From positions 1 through 64,000 of the forward strand of contig NZ_NHOA01000147.1 in assembly GCF_002727125.1 (NCBI RefSeq): a stretch of DNA of 64,000 nt, read 5' to 3'. The position numbers were made by a program, and so were the translations under genes. How positions within the stretch are numbered: the first letter of the stretch is position 1; every line of letters starts with the position of its first letter. Shown here one piece after another: positions 5,707 to 28,470 of the stretch. Source of the stretch: Halorubrum persicum. Its GTDB lineage: Archaea > Halobacteriota > Halobacteria > Halobacteriales > Haloferacaceae. Under the pieces are notes generated by a model. It was not told the origin of the DNA and ran no database searches. It saw only the letters and a program-made list of their open reading frames with translations.

Positions 5707-5781
5707 GGGTTGGTGGTCTAGCCAGGTTATGACGGCTCCTTCACACGGAGCAGGTCGGCGGTTCGAATCCGCCCCTAGCGG
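5707..5781 (+). pseudogene. tRNA-Val(CAC) split by integration; 3' acceptor strand replaced
   Basis: The sequence starts with acceptor strand gggttgg (5707-5713), then a D arm, an anticodon arm (stem gctcc/ggagc, loop ttcacac, anticodon CAC at 5742-5744), a variable loop and a perfect T arm (ggcgg/ccgcc, 5757-5773). The 3' acceptor strand, however, reads cctagcg (5774-5780), which pairs with only four of the seven 5' bases. The strand that would pair perfectly (ccaaccc plus A) lies at 28463-28470, directly after a copy of the T arm. The host tRNA was therefore cut inside its 3' end by the element and was not rebuilt on the left side. It is probably non-functional. Confidence 0.85.
5758..5775 (+). 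repeat. attL core: 18-bp direct repeat within the tRNA-Val T arm
   Basis: The sequence gcggttcgaatccgcccc is identical to 28447-28464. It covers most of the T stem-loop plus the first two acceptor bases. To its left is host tRNA, to its right element DNA. Tyrosine integrases of archaea commonly cross over in tRNA T arms. Confidence 0.9.
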
Positions 5782-6008
5782 TGCGCAATCCGCCGATCCT
5801 GAAGGACACGAAATCGGCGCGTAACCCTGGCACGCACCCCGAACTGGTATTCGCAGCGCTCACCCGCCGTTTGAATCCGTGCGTGAACCGGGCGATCCTG
5901 TCCAGCACCCCAGGCACGTCCCCCGAATCAACTGAAGGAATCATAAAACTACGGGTCGATCCGCAATCCGAACGGATTAAGAGAACCCACACATAATCCG
6001 GAAGCACA

Positions 6009-6083
6009 GGGCTGCTGGTCTAGTCCGGTTATGACGGCTCCTTCACACGGAGCAGGTCCCAAGTTCAAATCTTGGGCAGCCCA
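6009..6083 (+). tRNA. tRNA-Val (anticodon CAC), intact, inside the element
   Basis: A complete cloverleaf of 75 bases. The acceptor strands gggctgc (6009-6015) and gcagccc (6076-6082) pair fully, with discriminator A at 6083. The anticodon stem is gctcc/ggagc with loop ttcacac and anticodon CAC at 6044-6046; the T stem is ccaag/cttgg with loop ttcaaat. The D and anticodon arms are almost identical to the split tRNA at 5707, but the acceptor and T arms differ, so it is not a simple duplication. A TATA-like attaag lies about 30 bases upstream and a T run follows at 6085-6088. It can replace the host tRNA that the element broke. Confidence 0.95.
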
Positions 6084-6586
6084 CTTTTACAATTTCTACA
6101 ATCAGTAGCGATCGGTACGCTCCTCTATGCACAAAGAGGTCGACCGCGAGGACGTTCCCAGATCCGCTATAGCCTTCCTTTTGCTCATTTCCATCCAAGC
6201 CGACGCCTAAAGCGTTACACGTCCGTGTGCCGTCGGGTCCGAGTTTCGAGTCCGCAAGGGAGAGACACAGCGACGTGTACAGCGACGAAAGACCGGCAAT
6301 CAGCGTACGAGTACACGTCAAGTCGCGGGCCACGCGTCAGGAGAGGAGCGATAACTCACCGGATAGAGTCCAACAAGCCCGACACCGTCGTCGGTAGCTA
6401 ATACAATCCTAAACACTACGACCAGCGCTTCAGGCGAACCAAATAGCAACAGCGACGAGGTCGCTACCTCGACCGAATCTAACCCGGTTCGAATTCCAGC
6501 GAGAAACATTTTCAAATTGGTACTTGACTAAGAATATCGGTTGACTACAAGGGTTTTTACGTATATCAGGATTAAATATAGATGTA
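6084..6586. other. Non-coding stretch after tRNA-Val
   Basis: No convincing gene on either strand; open frames here run through the tRNA or lack a coherent composition. The last 50 bases are AT-rich and hold a TATA-like tttttacgtatat (about 6553-6565) about 22-34 bases upstream of the start at 6587, so they probably serve as that gene's promoter. Confidence 0.5.
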
Positions 6587-8465: not shown

Positions 8466-8509
8466 CCGGGCGGAGCCCGGCCGGCTCGCGTGGACCACCT
8501 ATCAAGGTG
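8466..8509 (+). promoter_or_regulatory. Two hairpins before the primase-helicase start
   Basis: CCGGGC/GCCCGG at 8466-8480 with a GGA loop, and CACCT/AGGTG at 8496-8509 with an ATCA loop. The second overlaps the GTG codon at 8507, so it could mask this start and favour the ATG at 8516. This is a possible translational control point; there is no direct evidence. Confidence 0.35.
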
Positions 8510-11500
8510 ACCCACATGACGGAAGATGTACGCGCCCCTGATAAATCCGGGGGCCCCGACACAGACGCGGCGAAGAACCAGCGAACCAACACGACCGGTA
8601 GCGACTCCCCCGCACCCACCGGGACGGGAGACGAAGCCATCGATGCAATCGTATCCCGGTACATCGACGACACCAGCGAGCGGAACGAGCACGGCATCCC
8701 GGACTCGTGGCGCGACGGTACCGTGAGCGATATACCCGGCGGAACTGGCGGTATCCCGGACGCGAACGGAGTCGTACTCCGACGCGCGGAACACATGTAC
8801 TCACGTCACTGTGACGTGGTGGTAGGTGTGGAGAGCGGCGTGCCGGTTACGGTCGTGCGGCAAGTGGTCGACGGACTTCCGCACGGGTCGCAAGACGCGG
8901 GTATATCAACGGTCAAGGTTATTATCGACGATGACCCGTCGAATCTACACGACGTGCACCGGTCCCTGGAGCCCGATACTCTCGGGAGTAACACGGATGA
9001 GGTACTCGGTGTCACTGACGACGGTGACATCGTCGCCGTCGACCCGCCGGAGACGGAGACTGGTGGCGAGGACCGGGCCGGTGACGGTATCGACGCCGAC
9101 ACGCTCGAAGACCTTGCCGGCGGTGAGGACGTGACGCTCGCCGACGGCACCGTCATCGGTGAGAAGACCGACAGTATGATCGACCCGTACGAATGCGGCG
9201 CGTGCGGAAAGGCATTCGAGTCGGAGCACGGACTCAAGACCCATTACGGGTCGCAGCACAGTGGTGTCGACGACGAGGAACGCGAGAAGCTGATGAACGG
9301 TGACTTTGGACCGGACACGACGGACCCGGACACCGGCGAGTCACTCCCCGGCGACGACGAGTCGGAGACCCTATCGCAACGCTCACGAGAGAAGAACAAA
9401 GCCGAGCAGGACGTACCCGAGCTGTGGGGTGAGGCCGAGTGGCGGTACCAGGCGGCATCGATGTCATCGAGCGATATTCGGAAGCCGGACGCGCGGGATG
9501 CGGTCGTCACGGCGCTCGAAGCCCAAGACGACTGGCTCAGCATCCGTGAACGGTGCCAGGAAGGGAACACGCACCTTGCACGGTACGACCCGGACGAGAG
9601 CGGTTCCGGTGCGTGGACAACCGATAACATCTACACCTACGTACTGGACGAGTCGAAGGACCGGCTCGGGTCCACTATCACCGACACGGAAGCCGCGCAC
9701 ATCATTCTGGAGCTCGCGTCGCGGAACCGCGTGTCAGAAGACGACGTGAACGCTGGCGACGACGACCGGCTGTTAGTCCCGGTGGCGAACGGGACGCTGG
9801 ACCTGAGCGACGCCGAGTACGATACGGGGACGCACTCGGTGGACCTGGACTCGGTCGAACTCTTAGAACCGGATAAGTCGCGTATGTGGCAATACCGTAT
9901 CGACACTGAGTACGACCCCGACTCGGCGGACCTGGACGGGCTCGATGAATGGGTCAAAGAGATCACGCACGACCACCGTGACGACGACCGTCGAATGCTG
10001 TGGGAGTGGATAGGACACGCGTTACACCCGGAGTACCCGACTGACGGATTCTTAGTGCTTATCGGGGACGGTGGGTCGGGTAAGTCGCAATTCCTCGGTC
10101 TCAATCGGAAAATGGTCGGTGAACACAACACGACCGCTCGGTCCATCAAAGACCTGCAGTCAAGGTTCGGGAAGGTGAACGGCGCGCTTAGTAGCGTGGC
10201 GAACATCAACACGGAACTCTCCGGCACGAAACAGGCGGGTATCGGACCGCTTAAATCAATGACGGCGAACGAGCCGACGTTCGTCGAGGATTCGAAGGGC
10301 GACGACGGGTCCGAGCAGACGAACACGACGACGATGATATTCGCATCGGACAATCCGCCCGCATTCGGACAGTCGAACAGGGCACTCGGACGGAGACTGT
10401 ACCCGGTTGAATTCCCGATGGAATACTGTGAGAACCCGGACCCGGAGAACCCGTACGAGTTACAGGCACGACCGAAGCACCTCGTCGAGTCGGAACTGCA
10501 GGAAGATGAGGCGCGGCAGAAAGCCGCGCTTGTTCGCGCGGTGCAAGGGCTCGTGCGGCTCATGGAAGAGGGGAACCCGACGACGGATCTTGAATGGGAA
10601 GAACGCATCGGGCTATACAATTCGTACGCGGACCCGATCGCCGACTTTCGACGGTCGTGTCTGAAGAAGGCACCGGACGCACCAGGTATCCATACAAATG
10701 ACCTATCGGCCGCGTACGACCGGTTCGCCAAACTCAACGGGCACGAAGGCAAGACGAAGCGGACTCTCGTCGAGCAGCTGCAGAAGCTCGATATACCGAT
10801 GCGAAAGCAGCGAACACGGACGTACACGCCCGGCGAATCCCGCGACGTTATCTATCAGGGTATCACGTTTACCGAGGACGCCGTGAAGTTCTTCTTGGAA
10901 GAGGATGCGCATTGGGATGCCGGGCTGTACAGGGAGTACGTGTCCATCGGCACTATTGAGACGACCGAGCAGGACGGGCTCGATACCGACAGTAGTAGCG
11001 ATGCGGACGGGTCGGGCGTGGCGGTCGGTGATGCGCTTGATATGCTCCGGGTCCGCGCGGCCGGGTCGGAGCACGGCCGGTCCGCCGGTCCCCGGTCGGC
11101 GGTCCTCGATGCGCTCGCCGTCGCCGGTATCGACGAGCCTAAGGATGAGCTTGATGCGCTTAGGCTCGAAGAGGGTGCGGTGTACGTCGAGGACGGTGAG
11201 GTGAGATTAACGGACCCGGTTGAGGCTGATAGGGACAGGGATGACAACGGCGACAGCGGCGACAGCAGTTACGAGAGTGACGGTGACGAGGATGACGGCT
11301 TGGGCGGCGACGATGGCAGCGGTGATGAGGATAGTAACGTCGGCGGGTGTGACGACACTGGCGGAGAGTTAGGGTCAGGTGATGCGGTGCGCGTCGATAC
11401 GCCCCGAGAGATAGCTGACTGCGTGTTACGGAGTATCGAGTTCGACCCGCACTATCCGATCGAAAGCACGGTCAGTACGGTTATGGCTACGGTACCGAGA

Positions 11501-11626
11501 TGTGAGTCTCGGGAAGCCGTCGAGGCGGTCATCAGTGAACTTATTGAGCACGGTAGGATTGAGCAGACAGGATCGCATAGGTTCCGTGTCGTCGATTCGA
11601 CTGCGGTTAATTGGGGCAATGCCTAA
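8507..11626 (+). CDS. P4/D5-type primase-helicase (superfamily 3) with N-terminal C2H2 zinc finger
   Basis: A 1039-residue replication protein. Residues about 227-252 form a C2H2 zinc finger (YECGACGKAFESEHGLKTH, then a second histidine). Residues about 420-510 look like the D5_N domain. A superfamily 3 helicase follows: Walker A LIGDGGSGKSQF near 518-529, a NINTEL segment near the Walker B position, and motif C with its polar residue in TMIFASDNPP. The end is a long acidic, low-complexity linker (about 905-960), then a small winged-helix-like domain (ESREAVEAVISELIEHGRIEQTG). Such proteins unwind and prime plasmid or phage origins. The GTG at 8507 and ATG at 8516 are alternative starts; a hairpin covers the GTG. 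Confidence 0.85.
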   Translation: MTHMTEDVRAPDKSGGPDTDAAKNQRTNTTGSDSPAPTGTGDEAIDAIVSRYIDDTSERNEHGIPDSWRDGTVSDIPGGTGGIPDANGVVLRRAEHMYSRHCDVVVGVESGVPVTVVRQVVDGLPHGSQDAGISTVKVIIDDDPSNLHDVHRSLEPDTLGSNTDEVLGVTDDGDIVAVDPPETETGGEDRAGDGIDADTLEDLAGGEDVTLADGTVIGEKTDSMIDPYECGACGKAFESEHGLKTHYGSQHSGVDDEEREKLMNGDFGPDTTDPDTGESLPGDDESETLSQRSREKNKAEQDVPELWGEAEWRYQAASMSSSDIRKPDARDAVVTALEAQDDWLSIRERCQEGNTHLARYDPDESGSGAWTTDNIYTYVLDESKDRLGSTITDTEAAHIILELASRNRVSEDDVNAGDDDRLLVPVANGTLDLSDAEYDTGTHSVDLDSVELLEPDKSRMWQYRIDTEYDPDSADLDGLDEWVKEITHDHRDDDRRMLWEWIGHALHPEYPTDGFLVLIGDGGSGKSQFLGLNRKMVGEHNTTARSIKDLQSRFGKVNGALSSVANINTELSGTKQAGIGPLKSMTANEPTFVEDSKGDDGSEQTNTTTMIFASDNPPAFGQSNRALGRRLYPVEFPMEYCENPDPENPYELQARPKHLVESELQEDEARQKAALVRAVQGLVRLMEEGNPTTDLEWEERIGLYNSYADPIADFRRSCLKKAPDAPGIHTNDLSAAYDRFAKLNGHEGKTKRTLVEQLQKLDIPMRKQRTRTYTPGESRDVIYQGITFTEDAVKFFLEEDAHWDAGLYREYVSIGTIETTEQDGLDTDSSSDADGSGVAVGDALDMLRVRAAGSEHGRSAGPRSAVLDALAVAGIDEPKDELDALRLEEGAVYVEDGEVRLTDPVEADRDRDDNGDSGDSSYESDGDEDDGLGGDDGSGDEDSNVGGCDDTGGELGSGDAVRVDTPREIADCVLRSIEFDPHYPIESTVSTVMATVPRCESREAVEAVISELIEHGRIEQTGSHRFRVVDSTAVNWGNA

Positions 11627-13395: not shown

Positions 13396-13522
13396 CCGAC
13401 ATATCCAGAGGATATGACGACTCAGGTGCAATACCCTCATCAGCGGGAGCAGCACGCGTGGATAGAGTAGTTGAGTTACATTGATTTGCGAGCTTACTTT
13501 TGAATCGGTGAGCCTGTCGACG

Positions 13523-14069: not shown

Positions 14070-14111
14070 GTGTCGGAAACTTTGTATCCCATTAACGAGA
14101 CGGGTATTTCA

Positions 14112-17100
14112 ATGAGTGTCACGGTCGACCAACTTCTTGAAGACATCGACGTAAGCGAAATAGAGTCTCTCGCAAACGAATTCGGAAATCTCACAGACTA
14201 CGATCGGGACCAGATGAACGAAGCCACGGTCAGGCAGCAGTACATCAACCCGCTTCTACGGGCCCTTGGATGGGACACCACATCAGACCAGGTACTCCCA
14301 GAACAACGCACACTGGCCGGCGACGCCGACTACGCACTAAGCCTGAACGGCCGCGAACAGTTTTTCATCGAAGCAAAAGCCCCCGGCAGAAACCTTGACG
14401 GAACACGGCGAGTCCGCGGTGAAGAACAGTCATTCGCAGTGCAGGCAATCGATTATGCGTGGCACCAGGGATGCGATTGGGCGGTACTCACTAACTTCGA
14501 GGAATTCCGGTTATACTTCACTCACATTCCGAAAGACCGCATCGAGGACGGTCTCGTATTCGAACTCTCAGTAGACGAGTACGCGTCTGACGACGGGTTA
14601 GAAGAACTCGCGCAGATCTCGAAACCAGCGGTCCAGAACAGGTCGCTTGAAGCGCTTGAACGGAACCGTGAACGCGAAACCGTTACTGACGAGATTCTGA
14701 ATGTCCTGTCGAAAGCCCGTGTACAACTCACACAGGACGTGCACGGATCGCACCCTGACCTCGATATGGATGAGCTCAGGGACGGTGTGCAGCGGATTCT
14801 TGACCGGTTAGTCGTGATGCGCGTCGCTGAAGACCGGTCCGTTATCCCGCGGGATTCACTGTTGAATATGATGGAGTCATGGTCTGACACGACGATTAAC
14901 CCGGAAGTCCGGACGCTCGTGAAAGACCTGAAAAACGCGTTCCGGGATTTTGACTCAGTCTACAACTCGGAACTCTTCGCTGAGCACGACTGCGAGGACT
15001 ACGAAATCAGCAACGATGTCCTCGAAGAGATCATCGAGGAACTGTACGACTACAATTTCGCGTACATCGACGCGGACGTTCTCGGGTCAATCTACGAGGA
15101 TTACCTCGGGCACGCAATCGAGGACAAGGAAGGCGAGGAAGCCCTCGAACTTGTCACGCAAGCCGATGAGCGGCGAGAAGGCGGGATTTATTACACACCA
15201 GTTCCGGTCGTCGAATACATCGTTGAATCAACGCTCGGAGACCGGTTAGACCGGATCATGAGTGACGTTTCGGCCGAGTTAGACGGCGATGACCCGGATT
15301 TTGAAGCTGCACGCGAGGAATTCGACCGGATTGAGACTATCAAATTCCTTGACGTGACGTGCGGGTCCGGGTCATTCCTGATTAAAGCATACGACCTCAT
15401 CTTAGACTGCTACGAGGAGTACAAGCAGTTGGTGCAGGATGCGAACGGTTCCGGGGGTGTGACATCGTACTCAGAAGCGCAGACACTCCCGAACGACTAC
15501 GAGCAACGCATACTGAGAAACAACCTGTTCGGTGTCGACCTGGACTACCAGGCAACGGAAATCGCCACGGTGAACCTGTTGCTGAAAGCCCTACGGAAGG
15601 GTGAGAAACTCCCGGCGATCCTCGAAGACAACGTGCGGCGAGGGAACAGCCTGCTGAACGGTGACCCGGAAACCGTTGCTGATGTACTCGGGATTACTGA
15701 AGCTGAAGCGCGTGAACTCGGCGCGTTCCCGTGGGAAGACGAATTCGACGACGTATTCGAATCGAATGGTGGCTTCGACGTTATCGCCGGAAATCCACCG
15801 TGGGGAGCCGATATTGAAGGCATTAGAACGTGGGTTGAGCACGACGAACACGGGTTCGACTTAGCAACCGGGCAGTACGATTCGTACGAGTTACTGATGG
15901 AAGCCGGTGAAGACATTCTGACTGACGACGGGACGCTCGGATTCATTATCCCGGATTCAATCTTCCGTGAGGAACACGAGGAACTCCGAGAATGGCTGGC
16001 CGAGCAGCACACCATCGACCAGGCGCACAAGCTCGGAGAAGGTATCTTCGACGACGTGTGGAGCGGGACAGCCATCGTTCAGTACACGACGACGAAGTCG
16101 GATGGGTCGAACACGGTCGAGTGTTCAGTGCTACGTAAAGAGGACCGTGAGCGAATGTCCGGAACGGGCGGGTCGGCATTGTCAACGCTCATCGATGAGC
16201 GACGGAACACGAAACCGCAGCAACGAATTCTTGACGAGCCGGATTACAACTTCCGACCGTTTGCTAACGAGGACGACTACGAGATTATGGGTATCATGGA
16301 AACCGGAACCGTCGATACGTATGATGTCCTTGATGATTCCCGCGGTGATGAGATAGGGAAATCCGGTGAAGTGATGCGGTGCCCGAATTGCTTCGAGTGG
16401 GATACGTACCCGCGATCGCGTGCAGCCTCGAAGGGCGGTGGGTATTACCCGAAGACGTGCACGCACTGTGACCACGAGTACGAGTTCGAAGATGCAGCTG
16501 AGACGAGAGAGATCATCAAGGACAACCAGCCGAACGACGAATGGAAGAAACTGTATTTCGGTGAGCACGTCACCAGGTACCGGGAGACGGGCCGCGCGTA
16601 TATCGACGATTCGATTAGTGGGATTGATTTTGAAGACGAATCGTTGTATGAGCCCCCGAAGATACTGCTTAGGAAGACCGGATTCGGGTTCAACGCGTTC
16701 ATCGACTACTCGGATGCGCGGTGCTTGCAAGTGGTATTCGTGTTCAGACTGAAAGACGATCGTGACAAGCCGTTCGACCAGTATGATATAGAGTACTTCT
16801 TAGGGTTGCTGAACTCCCGCGTGATGCTGTATTACTACACGAAGGAACGGTCCGAGATTGAATGGCAGTCGTACCCATACAAGACGCAAGGCCTTGTGAT
16901 GGGGTTACCGTTCCCAGAGGTAGATTTTGACGATGAGGAACAGGTAGAGCAGTACGAACGGTTCTGTGAGTTAGTCCGGAATGCGTGCCAGGGAACCGGG
17001 AAGATTGATTCTCAGGATGATTGGGAGATTGAACGGTTAGCGTATGAGTTCTATGGGATTCCTGAGAATAAACGCAACCGGATTACGAATGAATTAAAGG

Positions 17101-17153
17101 AGCTACAACGGCTACAGGTGGTTCGAGAGTTATTCCCCGGTGACGAGGATTAA
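14112..17153 (+). CDS. Type IIG restriction-modification enzyme (fused endonuclease and adenine methyltransferase)
   Basis: About 1013 residues. The N-terminus is a PD-(D/E)XK nuclease: DADYAL, then FFIEAKAPG near residues 84-92. A helical connector follows, then a gamma-class N6-adenine methyltransferase with the AdoMet motif FLDVTCGSGSF near 410-420, the VDLDYQATEIATVNLL motif, and the catalytic NPPW near 561. The C-terminal target-recognition region contains a zinc ribbon (CPNC and CTHC, near 756-790). Such Eco57I-like enzymes both cut and methylate one recognition sequence, so no partner gene is needed. A GTG at 14070 could extend it by 14 residues; ATG 14112 was preferred. The (D/E)-x-K and NPPW motifs are intact, so both activities are plausible. 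Confidence 0.9.
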   Translation: MSVTVDQLLEDIDVSEIESLANEFGNLTDYDRDQMNEATVRQQYINPLLRALGWDTTSDQVLPEQRTLAGDADYALSLNGREQFFIEAKAPGRNLDGTRRVRGEEQSFAVQAIDYAWHQGCDWAVLTNFEEFRLYFTHIPKDRIEDGLVFELSVDEYASDDGLEELAQISKPAVQNRSLEALERNRERETVTDEILNVLSKARVQLTQDVHGSHPDLDMDELRDGVQRILDRLVVMRVAEDRSVIPRDSLLNMMESWSDTTINPEVRTLVKDLKNAFRDFDSVYNSELFAEHDCEDYEISNDVLEEIIEELYDYNFAYIDADVLGSIYEDYLGHAIEDKEGEEALELVTQADERREGGIYYTPVPVVEYIVESTLGDRLDRIMSDVSAELDGDDPDFEAAREEFDRIETIKFLDVTCGSGSFLIKAYDLILDCYEEYKQLVQDANGSGGVTSYSEAQTLPNDYEQRILRNNLFGVDLDYQATEIATVNLLLKALRKGEKLPAILEDNVRRGNSLLNGDPETVADVLGITEAEARELGAFPWEDEFDDVFESNGGFDVIAGNPPWGADIEGIRTWVEHDEHGFDLATGQYDSYELLMEAGEDILTDDGTLGFIIPDSIFREEHEELREWLAEQHTIDQAHKLGEGIFDDVWSGTAIVQYTTTKSDGSNTVECSVLRKEDRERMSGTGGSALSTLIDERRNTKPQQRILDEPDYNFRPFANEDDYEIMGIMETGTVDTYDVLDDSRGDEIGKSGEVMRCPNCFEWDTYPRSRAASKGGGYYPKTCTHCDHEYEFEDAAETREIIKDNQPNDEWKKLYFGEHVTRYRETGRAYIDDSISGIDFEDESLYEPPKILLRKTGFGFNAFIDYSDARCLQVVFVFRLKDDRDKPFDQYDIEYFLGLLNSRVMLYYYTKERSEIEWQSYPYKTQGLVMGLPFPEVDFDDEEQVEQYERFCELVRNACQGTGKIDSQDDWEIERLAYEFYGIPENKRNRITNELKELQRLQVVRELFPGDED

Positions 17154-18656: not shown

Positions 18657-19394
18657 ATGAGAAACACCGAGAATGTTGCCGCGTACGTTCGTGCAAGCAC
18701 CGACAAACAAGGATCACAACACCAACGCGACGACATCACCTATTGGTGCGGTCAGAACGACATCAACACCAGCAGCATCGATTGGTACGTCGACTTAGCA
18801 CAATCCGGGAGCGACCCCGGACGAGATCAATTCCGCGAGTTGACCGACGCCGTCGCAGCAGGCGAATACGATCGTGTTGTCGTTTGGGAAATCTCTCGTT
18901 TGGCACGACTTGGAAGCATCTATCAAGAATTCTTCGAGACCGCAGCCGACAATCAAACGATAGTCAACATCACCAACGGGTGGACCGACACGGTTCGCCC
19001 GGACGGCACGGGTAAACTCATTGCAGACATCAGTGCTGCTGTCGCTGAAGAGGAACGACGGAAGCTCATCAGTCGTGTGAACTCGGGAATCAAACGTGCC
19101 CGGCGCGAAGGTAAATGGCTGGGTGAAGTGCCAGTTGGGTTCGAGCGGAACAGTGAGGGATACTTACGACCCCTCATCGATGCAGACCCGGATGAGGACT
19201 CCTACTTAGAGATCCGGAATGCCCTCGAAGCCATCGAAGACGATGAGTCCTACAGGCAAGCCGCGATGGGTCTCAACACCACCCGGCAGACACTCTCACG
19301 TATCCACCAAGACGAGGACAGACGGCAGTGGTATCTCGATGCAACGGCCGAAGATAAACGGGTTGAGGAAGCGTTAGCAGAGGTACAACACTAA
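18657..19394 (+). CDS. Serine recombinase (resolvase/invertase family)
   Basis: A 245-residue protein. The catalytic domain is complete: AAYVRASTDKQ with the nucleophile at Ser14, DRVVVWEISRLAR with the active-site arginines, and the long E-helix beginning EEERRKLISRVNSGIKRARREGKWLG, which links to the C-terminal helix-turn-helix (SYRQAAMGLNTTRQTLSRI). Size and order match small resolvases and invertases rather than large serine integrases. With a tyrosine integrase at the right end, this enzyme probably resolves multimers or inverts a segment inside the element. Its target site was not identified. Confidence 0.9.
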   Translation: MRNTENVAAYVRASTDKQGSQHQRDDITYWCGQNDINTSSIDWYVDLAQSGSDPGRDQFRELTDAVAAGEYDRVVVWEISRLARLGSIYQEFFETAADNQTIVNITNGWTDTVRPDGTGKLIADISAAVAEEERRKLISRVNSGIKRARREGKWLGEVPVGFERNSEGYLRPLIDADPDEDSYLEIRNALEAIEDDESYRQAAMGLNTTRQTLSRIHQDEDRRQWYLDATAEDKRVEEALAEVQH

Positions 19395-20324: not shown

Positions 20325-20415
20325 GGTCATTCGCAACTGAACGAGGAGCCGGACTCGGCAGCCGATTATGAAGTACCCAGGAAAAACTCTTGTAAGAGTA
20401 CTATGTATTCCAGAT

Positions 20416-22248
20416 ATGACTTTCAATCAAACTCACGTATCTGATACGCTGACGTGGACGATCTCGATTGAGGAACCAAGTGACGATGCGTCCGTTACCG
20501 ACCCGGTCCAGTGTGACTTAGAAGTAGATGTCGGAGACAGGAACGCAATAGACTACCCTGCATCAATCAGGATAACTGAGATTAACTTCACTACACTTGA
20601 TGACGCTGAGGAACTCATCGCATCACCCGACGATCTCCCGGTCCGGTACTCGTTCGAGATTTCGTCAAGCAATGACCGCCCAACAATCACCCTCAGCATT
20701 ACTGACAGTGGCGACGTATCCGAAACAGCAACGTTCCATCTCAGTCACAGTGAAGCGGTTCACCTAGCAAGTAAGATCCTGAACGGTGAGGAAACAGACG
20801 GGATCATAGAATTGATTGAACAGCACTTCACGTCGGTTTCCAGGTCAACCGGGTTCCGTGGCGAGATCGAACATTTCACATCATTCAACGAGTACGTCCA
20901 GCTTCTCGATTTCATTTATGGAGCTGAATCAAATCGGTATGCAGACGATGCTCGGACGGTGATGAAGCGAGTGCTGCGACCACACGGCCCGTATACGGCC
21001 GAGTCAATCAACGATCTCGAAACCAAGATCGAGCTCTACAGCTCACAACCGCACCTCGGAGACATCTCTACCAAGGATGTTGTTGTGGAACACATCTATG
21101 ACGTACTATCCCAGAGTAGTAATAAAGAGAACATAACGATAGACTCACTTGATGAGATCTCTACGCGACTAAACCTTAACCACGACTGGTCGAAACTACT
21201 GACTGAAACCGAGTTGAGTCTACTATTAGCCGCGTACTACGTTGAGCGTGGACCAGACGGGGTCGAAGCAGTACTTCACCGGCAAGACCCTGACCAGCTC
21301 CACGATATAGAGCGGAGTGAATTTCCGGAACACCTTGCAGACACGCTCATCCAGCATGCAGAAGAAACCAAGAAAGAAAATGCGCTTGTTGCATCCCTCT
21401 ACGAGCACGCAGCCGAGATATATGACGCGATAGGCGCTGATGAGCAAGCAGCAAGAGCAACAACGCAATCACAAATCAACACTGCATTCCAAGCAATAGA
21501 AGAGGAAGACCACACTACTGTACGTGAATCCTTCCGGAACGCAGTACGTGAATCAGCAGAATATCCGAACCTAGGCGGGGAGTTCATCTTCACAGCGAAT
21601 CAGGAAGCCACTGCGATCAAAAAACAATTCCAACACGACGGTGATTTGGAAACAGCACGTGACAACATTGAGTCATTGACAGAGATAATAAATGAACACC
21701 CGACAATTCAAATCGAAGGGCTTGACGATGTCAATGAAACCAAGGAATACCTTGAAGAGAAGAAAGAAGCAACCGACACGGACCAATCTGAAGTACCAAT
21801 CCCTGACGACGAACGAGACGACGCATCCTTAAAAGACGTTGAACGGGAATACACGGAAGTCCGGCGGAAACAACGTGATCAGCAATTCCGAGACAGAGTC
21901 ATCCAAGTCTACAACGGGACGTGTGCAATATGCGGCTCACAGCGACGAACTCCAGACGGACGACCGGAAGTCGAAGCAGCACACATCCAACCGGCCGGCG
22001 ACGACGGTCCAGACAAAATCAAAAACGGGATCGCGCTCTGCAAACTCCACCACTGGGCATTCGATAACGGGTGGATTGCCGTCAATGACAACTACTCAAT
22101 CATCGTCCGGGATGCCCCGCACGTCAATGGGTACGACGGGTTCTCCGAATTGGAAGGCACCGATCTTGTCTTGCCGAGCGACGACGGCCTTCACCCGGAG
22201 CAAGAATTCTTCGAGTATCATCGGGAAGCACACGGGTTCGAAGGGTAG
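20416..22248 (+). CDS. HNH endonuclease with beta-rich N-terminus and helical repeat middle
   Basis: About 610 residues from MTFNQTHVSD (an ATG 48 bases upstream is also in frame). Residues 1-120 are strand-rich. Residues about 150-420 are helical with a TPR-like run (LVASLYEHAAEIYDAIGADEQAARA). A charged linker leads to a C-terminal HNH nuclease: CAICG near 502, EAAHIQPAG, then NGIALCKLHHWAFD near 535-548, with both zinc-binding cysteine pairs and the catalytic histidines present. HNH domains with this EAAHI-ALC-LHH layout occur in restriction enzymes. No methyltransferase is adjacent, so it may be a modification-dependent or signal-activated nuclease. The next gene encodes another nuclease. 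Confidence 0.8.
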   Translation: MTFNQTHVSDTLTWTISIEEPSDDASVTDPVQCDLEVDVGDRNAIDYPASIRITEINFTTLDDAEELIASPDDLPVRYSFEISSSNDRPTITLSITDSGDVSETATFHLSHSEAVHLASKILNGEETDGIIELIEQHFTSVSRSTGFRGEIEHFTSFNEYVQLLDFIYGAESNRYADDARTVMKRVLRPHGPYTAESINDLETKIELYSSQPHLGDISTKDVVVEHIYDVLSQSSNKENITIDSLDEISTRLNLNHDWSKLLTETELSLLLAAYYVERGPDGVEAVLHRQDPDQLHDIERSEFPEHLADTLIQHAEETKKENALVASLYEHAAEIYDAIGADEQAARATTQSQINTAFQAIEEEDHTTVRESFRNAVRESAEYPNLGGEFIFTANQEATAIKKQFQHDGDLETARDNIESLTEIINEHPTIQIEGLDDVNETKEYLEEKKEATDTDQSEVPIPDDERDDASLKDVEREYTEVRRKQRDQQFRDRVIQVYNGTCAICGSQRRTPDGRPEVEAAHIQPAGDDGPDKIKNGIALCKLHHWAFDNGWIAVNDNYSIIVRDAPHVNGYDGFSELEGTDLVLPSDDGLHPEQEFFEYHREAHGFEG

Positions 22249-27211: not shown

Positions 27212-28168
27212 CTACATATCGAACGCGTCGCGCCTTAATTCGCGCTTTTGCGTCTCTGACCGTACGTCGTAGTGCTTCTCCATCGTATCTGTGGAAGTGT
27301 CAACTCGACCAGACAGTAAGGCCGGCTCAGTCCCCCGATCTAACCATGCCGAGATTGACGACCGGCGGATGTCGTGTGGTGCGACCGAGTCGCTACACTG
27401 AGAGTACCGGTCCGCAGAACACTCACACGGCTCTGAGAGACCGCCACACGCGGTCAGACTATACACGTGGCGACGAACGGATGTACGGGAGAGACGACCT
27501 TCACCGGCGGTCAGCAACGGTGTACGACTGTAGTCGTCGGTACAGTCCGGACGCCGGTCGTCGATCCACGCACGAAGCACGTCACACACCCACCCGTGTA
27601 GGTTCACTTCCCGCTCAGATCCGTCTTTGTTCTTCAACGGAGTCCCTTCAGACGGACGGTGCACCAATTTGACCCACCGGTCATCCAAGTGCAAGTCCTT
27701 GATGTCGATTGCCCGCACCCCACCGATGCGAAGCGAACACGTCCACAGCAACGACAGGAGCACATGGTCCAGCGAGGCATACTCATATCGTTCTAAGTCG
27801 TCGAGAATAGCACCCACACGGTCCGGGTCGATTGATGTGTCCCGTGACCGACCGGCGCGAGTCGGGAGCACGATTGACTCAGGCAAAGCCTCATCACACC
27901 ACCCCATTCGGTGACAGAACCGAAGGAATAACCGCAGCACGCACAACTGGTTGTACATCGTATTCGAGTTGAGATCTTCGGAGCGATACCGGCGGAAGCG
28001 CGATAAGTCGATTGGGGCGATGTCGTCGAGATCGTCAAGACCGCCCGCACCCCCAGCCCATTGTCTAAACTGTTTCAACTGATAGTGGTGATTGCGCAGC
28101 GAACTATCTGACAGCTCTATACTACGTTCCGCAAAGTACGCCTCAACGGCATCATCAATCGTTGGCAT
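27212..28168 (-). CDS. Tyrosine recombinase/integrase of the element
   Basis: A 318-residue protein. Residues 1-95 form the SAM-like core-binding domain (TIDDAVEAYFAERS and following). The catalytic domain has CSLRIGGVRAI with Arg147, a lysine in the beta-hairpin (PLKNKDGSE, about 178-185), APHDIRRSS with His265 and Arg268, LLSGRVD with arginine in the second histidine position, and the nucleophile Tyr300 in MEKHYD. A cysteine cluster (241, 248, 250, 258) precedes the active-site helix. I chose MPTIDDAVEA as start; the upstream frame only continues through non-coding DNA into the tRNA remnant. Lying beside the right att core, it should catalyse integration into tRNA-Val and, perhaps, excision. 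Confidence 0.93.
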   Translation of the reverse strand: MPTIDDAVEAYFAERSIELSDSSLRNHHYQLKQFRQWAGGAGGLDDLDDIAPIDLSRFRRYRSEDLNSNTMYNQLCVLRLFLRFCHRMGWCDEALPESIVLPTRAGRSRDTSIDPDRVGAILDDLERYEYASLDHVLLSLLWTCSLRIGGVRAIDIKDLHLDDRWVKLVHRPSEGTPLKNKDGSEREVNLHGWVCDVLRAWIDDRRPDCTDDYSRTPLLTAGEGRLSRTSVRRHVYSLTACGGLSEPCECSADRYSQCSDSVAPHDIRRSSISAWLDRGTEPALLSGRVDTSTDTMEKHYDVRSETQKRELRRDAFDM

Positions 28169-28332: not shown

Positions 28333-28361
28333 CCTTCACACGGAGTATGTCGGCGGTTCGA
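28333..28361 (+). repeat. tRNA-Val fragment near the right end
   Basis: The segment from cctt through ggcggttcga matches the anticodon-to-T-arm part of the split tRNA-Val (5738-5766) with two mismatches. The last twelve bases, tcggcggttcga (28350-28361), are identical to 5755-5766. It lies 85 bp before the attR core and may be the trace of an earlier recombination at the same tRNA. Confidence 0.7.
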
Positions 28362-28446
28362 CGAGCGAACGTCAGTGAGCGAGTCGAACGCAGCGAGACG
28401 AAAGCCCGCGACGGGCCCGATGGGCCCGAGCGGGACCGTCTCGCAC

Positions 28447-28470
28447 GCGGTTCGAATCCGCCCCAACCCA
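28447..28470 (+). repeat. attR core plus displaced 3' end of the host tRNA-Val
   Basis: Bases 28447-28464 are identical to the attL core at 5758-5775. They continue with aaccca, which completes an acceptor strand ccaaccc plus discriminator A that pairs fully with gggttgg at 5707-5713. This is the original 3' end of the host tRNA, carried to the far side of the element. Confidence 0.9.

Follow-up and report, generated by a model that had tools for sequence, protein, structure and literature searches.

The window, the whole 64,000-nucleotide stretch of DNA that was analysed (G000:C20:1-64000), belongs to a 3.58-Mb haloarchaeal draft genome of 158 contigs that is 97.65% complete. The genus of the source genome, g1, includes Halorubrum sp. 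48-1-W (G135). A mobile element of approximately 22.7 kb (about 5776-28464) is inserted in the tRNA-Val(CAC) gene, and its GC content is approximately 50% versus approximately 70% in the flanks. The 5' 69 nt of the host gene, which run through the T arm and the first 3' bases of the acceptor, remain at attL (5707-5775, forward strand) and match the corresponding part of the intact tRNA-Val(CAC) at 100% identity in ten genomes of g1. They end in the 18-bp attL core GCGGTTCGAATCCGCCCC (5758-5775, forward strand), an exact direct repeat of the attR core (28447-28464, forward strand). In an alignment with the attL of Halomicrobium katesii DSM 19301 (G140), TAGCGG (5776-5781, forward strand) replaces the acceptor 3' strand AACCCA. 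The left junction reads CCCC/TAGCGG (the slash marks the core edge), and acceptor pairs 1-74, 3-72 and 5-70, three of the seven, are broken. The displaced host 3' end AACCCA lies beyond the right junction (28465-28470, forward strand), as identified from the sequence and the sister genomes.

A functional host tRNA is rebuilt at neither attL nor attR, and the CCCC/TAGCGG junction differs from that of ordinary, restoring archaeal integration. The two junctions indicate that a non-restoring integration broke the host tRNA-Val(CAC). When the flanks are joined across the two 18-bp cores, the product is a native tRNA at 75 of 75 positions and is identical to the gene of the sister genomes. The broken host copy (5707-5781) scores 42.4 bits in RF00005, above the gathering cut-off, and receives no ARAGORN call. 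It is conceivable, at that score, that the broken copy retains some residual function. Annotation pipelines may list it as a functional tRNA on the same score.

The element encodes a 318-aa tyrosine integrase that adjoins attR (27212-28168, reverse strand; PF00589/PF02899, phrog_1, tree) and lies approximately 280 bp from it. In the circular form, the integrase gene, attP and a carried tRNA would be contiguous. The remaining annotated genes are all on the forward strand. They encode a D5_N/DUF5906 primase-helicase-like replication protein (8507-11626; Pfam, PHROGs), a type IIG restriction enzyme-methyltransferase assigned to cargo and defence (14070-17153; PADLOC PDLC03604, E 5.5e-88; Eco57I Pfam), a serine resolvase/invertase (18657-19394; PF00239) and an HNH endonuclease protein assigned to cargo (20368-22248; PF13391). 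The right arm contains a vestige of tRNA positions 31-59 (28333-28361, forward strand; BLAST, sequence). The vestige and the core are separated by a GC-rich insert of approximately 86 bp, and the 9-mer GCGGTTCGA is present on both sides. This arrangement identifies the right arm (28333-28470) as an apparently older, longer tRNA homology that was later interrupted.

A Pfam and PHROGs scan of 11 element proteins, a subset of the ORFs, detects no virion or capsid protein family, and no viral contig matches the tRNA pattern, the integrase or the left-arm pattern of the element. On both counts the element differs from a temperate phage. A tRNA search of phage records for a free or viral form gives nothing, and plasmid records contain distant tRNA-Val matches only.

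A second element in the same genome (L125; G000:C102:4805-4879 and 13472-13505) is inserted in tRNA-Val(GAC), and its integrase is 46% identical. This second insertion rebuilt its target tRNA and displaced a 34-nt 3' fragment, which makes it an in-genome example of ordinary restoring integration.

The carried tRNA and its copy number

ARAGORN identifies one tRNA in the window, a tRNA-Val(CAC) at 6009-6084. In RF00005, 6009-6083 (forward strand) scores 59.2 bits (E 2.7e-12), and the 3' end of the carried tRNA is at 6083, with A as the discriminator. The tRNA is intact and sits 233 bp inside the left end of the element. The preliminary description had placed a tRNA with the anticodon of the broken gene approximately 230 bp inside this end, and both the distance and the end at 6083 are correct. 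Between the carried tRNA and the pre-insertion host tRNA, 15 of 75 positions differ. Thirteen of these are in the acceptor and T arms, as had been described, and two are in the D loop (positions 16 and 18). The anticodon arm is identical, so the earlier statement that the D and anticodon arms match the host gene holds in full for the anticodon arm and, for the D arm, everywhere except these two bases. The recoded acceptor and T arms overlap the att core.

A TATA-like box, ATTAAG (5976-5981, forward strand), precedes the carried tRNA by approximately 30 nt and is a putative promoter element by comparison with other promoters. Every carried tRNA has such a box approximately 30 nt upstream, and the spacing equals that of the native promoter. 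Among the five distinct carried tRNAs, four stem pairs vary (7-68, 29-45, 31-43 and 52-66). All four variable pairs are compensatory, with both sides changed and pairing kept, and all five tRNAs keep the CAC anticodon.

No second intact tRNA-Val(CAC) is found in the source genome, a draft of 158 contigs, by BLAST and pattern search. This absence rests on those two kinds of search; an RF00005 scan of the genome misses the 6009 tRNA and is not a full inventory. The carried tRNA is thus the sole intact CAC tRNA found, which supports the earlier proposal that it would rescue the cell from loss of the host tRNA. In the family sample, the CAC pattern is matched in 132 of 139 genomes, with exactly one copy in 131 of the 132. 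The two high-quality family genomes without a pattern match contain one CAC gene each by BLAST, and tRNA-Val(CAC) is kept throughout the high-quality sample. Since the gene is single-copy and kept in the family, its loss is expected to be costly. Its essentiality we only infer, because tRNA-Val(UAC), which is present in the source genome, might read GUG by wobble; tRNA-Val(CAC) would then be important rather than essential.

Sister genomes have the ordinary host tRNA, not the carried type, at the insertion site. This supports the earlier view that the carried tRNA is element-borne and is not a by-product of integration. Within the genus, tRNA-Val(CAC) is an integration hotspot, and several genomes contain displaced 3' fragments approximately 10-18 kb from the intact gene (G020:C1:2396130, G018:C16:58033, G014:C7:23077 and G010:C113:12875).

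Related loci in other Halobacteria

The search for the carried tRNA type covered 392 Halobacteria genomes and, in addition, named genomes. In the MAG Haloarculaceae CSSed162cmA_77 (L160), the break in the host tRNA-Val(CAC) falls at the same core edge (CCGCCCC/TTTTGGC), the carried tRNA lies approximately 250 bp past the break, and no other CAC gene is found in that MAG. In Halomicrobium katesii (G140), the host gene is restored (CCCC/AACCCA), the carried tRNA is 239 bp further on, and the integrase is 70% identical to the window integrase. The host gene is also restored in G044, where the carried tRNA is 229 bp further on. In G302, an intact host gene is followed by a tandem element and then by a core and a carried tRNA. 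The G302 locus is weaker evidence, since its carried tRNA opens the second tandem element, behind the attR of another element. In this tandem array (G302:C1:2530609-2545844), the first element has its own integrase and the left end of the second bears the carried tRNA, with recoding in the anticodon stem as well (GTCGCC/GGCGA, the two strands of the stem).

In G022 and G135, both from the genus of the window, the sole CAC tRNA is of the carried type and is preceded by element left-arm sequence; neither contains a host-type CAC gene. These two tRNAs were considered as native genes, a reading that was rejected because their upstream sequences match element left arms and not native promoters. The left arm of the window element (5776-6008, forward strand) is homologous to those of G140, G302, G044, G022, G135 and MAG L160 by alignment and shuffles. 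Left arms align better than shuffled sequences, with z from 4.0 to 38, except for the window-G044 pair, which is weak (z 2.2). The window left arm has no match in native upstream sequences (z about 1). In a tblastx comparison of the window with G140, sharing within the element is limited to its two ends, the left one and the one with the integrase. Because tblastx is noisy in GC-rich DNA, synteny of the native locus is taken from blastn of the flanks. Shared ends with an unshared interior fit a portable module of integrase, attP and tRNA with differing cargo. Across these loci, the alignments assign the carried tRNA to the left end of the element in several families.

The carried tRNA of G022, G135 and MAG L160 equals the native Halopenitus tRNA over 75 nt. 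The Halopenitus tRNA-Val(CAC) is at its native locus, with native promoter and neighbours. This tRNA type may have been captured by an element, or it may have passed from an element to Halopenitus and genus g23; the sequences are consistent with either. All sampled species of Halopenitus (L163-L165) and g23 (L170, L171 and L178) have the same recoded T arm without the att core at the native locus. This recoding may confer resistance to integration or may reflect an old replacement. In two g18 genomes, another recoded T arm and acceptor, GATGGTTCAAATCCATCGCAGCCCA, is present in the only CAC tRNA matched (G426:C2:402101-402165 and G427:C101:10447-10511).

In the integrase tree, the window integrase nests in a supported clade (100/99) with G060, G075, G362 and G062 (another family); the branching inside the clade is not fixed. 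In these four relatives the CAC gene is restored and no second CAC tRNA is found. Since the window integrase is nested among restoring relatives, non-restoration looks derived. G140, G044 and G302, with a restored gene and a carried tRNA, look like the intermediate state. The favoured order on these comparisons is that the tRNA was acquired first and restoration was lost later. Integration would have been of the ordinary restoring kind at the outset. A tRNA-Val(CAC) would then have been captured beside attP while restoration still worked, restoration would have been lost after that, and the host gene would have been lost last, in some lineages. For tRNA-dependent lysogeny in phages, the evolutionary order has been called unclear, with tRNA-first among the plausible orders (PMC10865867).

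A broader reading is advanced more tentatively and is best regarded as a possibility somewhat short of probable. It holds that the carried tRNA has repeatedly replaced an indispensable archaeal tRNA as the sole copy (the window, MAG L160, G022 and G135), that the native T-arm variant of Halopenitus and g23 may be an older outcome, and that the loci record gain of the tRNA first and loss of restoration second.

Mechanism and alternative explanations

The element at this locus very probably represents non-restoring integration rescued by a carried tRNA-Val(CAC). In the proposed mechanism, the tyrosine integrase would target the 3' part of the single tRNA-Val(CAC) gene through an 18-bp core that ends inside the acceptor stem. 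The attP would lack the last six bases of the tRNA gene, and integration would thus break the host tRNA. The complete carried tRNA, 233 bp from attP and with its own TATA-like promoter, would replace the lost gene. Paired recoding of the T arm and acceptor leaves the integrase no 18-bp target in the carried tRNA, which would protect it from re-integration. On circularisation, the integrase gene, attP and the tRNA would form one portable module.

The device would make integration survivable and would penalise imprecise loss only. The preliminary description had proposed an addiction device that makes loss of the element harmful. Precise excision would rebuild the native tRNA, and therefore a clean loss should do no harm; that part of the proposal is not supported in its strong form. 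Harm would be expected from imprecise loss, or from loss after the host copy has vanished. The carried tRNA would no longer be dispensable once the host gene has been lost, as it apparently has been in G022 and G135. Rescue is not the sole past benefit of the carried tRNA, because it is now redundant in G140, G044 and G302.

The same redundancy lends some plausibility to post-integration decay, in which the host tRNA was first restored and then lost its 3' end to decay, being dispensable in the presence of the spare copy. G140, G044 and G302 each have a restored host gene beside a carried tRNA, a state that would allow such decay. The distribution of changes in the window makes this explanation improbable. 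Four of the six bases 3' of the core are changed and none of the other 69, which equal those of the ten sister genomes; by our own calculation, the chance of this is approximately 1e-5 for four random changes. MAG L160, an independent locus in an unrelated host, is broken at the same edge. Both observations favour an attP that itself lacks the six bases.

Codon supply is a commonly proposed explanation for the tRNAs of many viruses. If the carried tRNA were a translation helper for element genes, the broken host gene would be incidental, and the three relatives that carry the tRNA despite an intact host gene are in keeping with this. GTG is rarer in the element genes than in hand-chosen flanking ORFs (17.0 versus 23.8 per 1000 codons; 26% versus 30% of Val codons). 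In every clear element case, moreover, the carried tRNA and the target gene share one isotype, and the tRNA adjoins the att core. A role in codon supply is accordingly rated slightly below decay, as a quite unlikely explanation.

Counter-defence, in which the carried tRNA stands in for host tRNA-Val that anticodon nucleases have destroyed, draws on an idea discussed for phage tRNAs (PMC10865867). It is very unlikely here: the carried tRNA has the same anticodon arm and loop as the host tRNA, so that an anticodon-loop nuclease should cleave the two alike, and the divergence is in the arms that overlap the att site and in two D-loop bases. Least likely of all is a functionless host tRNA captured by chance with flanking DNA, for although the identity of the G022, G135 and MAG carried tRNAs to the native Halopenitus tRNA makes capture from a relative plausible, compensatory changes preserve the structure in divergent copies and the carried tRNA is the sole intact CAC gene found in the window genome, MAG L160, G022 and G135.

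Comparison with known systems

The preliminary description knew of no case in this exact form, and the same principle has in fact been described in actinobacteriophages (PMC10865867) and in a Rhizobium prophage (PMC8631192). tRNA-dependent lysogeny has been shown experimentally in the actinobacteriophages Fionnbharth, Gabriela, Whirlwind and others (PMC10865867). As in the window, these phages have a tyrosine integrase, an attB that overlaps a single-copy host tRNA gene, a short att core without tRNA rebuilding and an element-borne, intact cognate tRNA that matches the target in isotype (PMC10865867). The element described here differs in its archaeal host, in having no virion gene among the scanned proteins and in being known from sequence, whereas the phages are known by experiment. 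Its core is 18 bp (8-17 in the phages), its target is the T arm and acceptor of tRNA-Val(CAC), its tRNA lies beside attP, and some of its relatives with a carried tRNA still restore the host gene.

The vTRX32-1-like prophages of Rhizobium also carry a whole replacement tRNA without the integration motif, which is said to prevent super-integration (PMC8631192). They differ in that the host is bacterial, the virus is a podovirus, the tRNA is tRNA-Leu and the motif is 12 bp, and the function was inferred by the authors (PMC8631192). The Lactobacillus prophage Lj965, as cited in PMC10865867, combines non-restoring integration with a cognate prophage tRNA and is likewise bacterial. In ordinary archaeal integration, a tyrosine integrase by attR also targets the 3' part of a tRNA gene, but the tRNA is rebuilt there and not here, where a replacement is carried (PMC8371274). 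According to a review of archaeal integrases, integration leaves the tRNA restored, and tRNA-Val(CAC) is among the favoured targets (PMC8371274). The element integrase has Pfam domains in common with the SNJ2-type archaeal integrase (PMC8371274).

No archaeal case of tRNA-carrying, non-restoring integration is found in the literature searched, which mostly lies outside the subscription journals. The principle is already known from phages; what is new is an archaeal, apparently virion-less form with informative relatives. Because the archaeal review states that tRNA is restored upon integration (PMC8371274), the locus extends a phage strategy to another domain and probably also to another kind of element. 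The haloarchaeal loci are candidate intermediates and end points, and their order is testable by genome comparison. The finding is relevant to tRNA annotation and to the building of integrative vectors in haloarchaea, and it points to a route by which an indispensable tRNA gene may be swapped for a mobile, recoded one.
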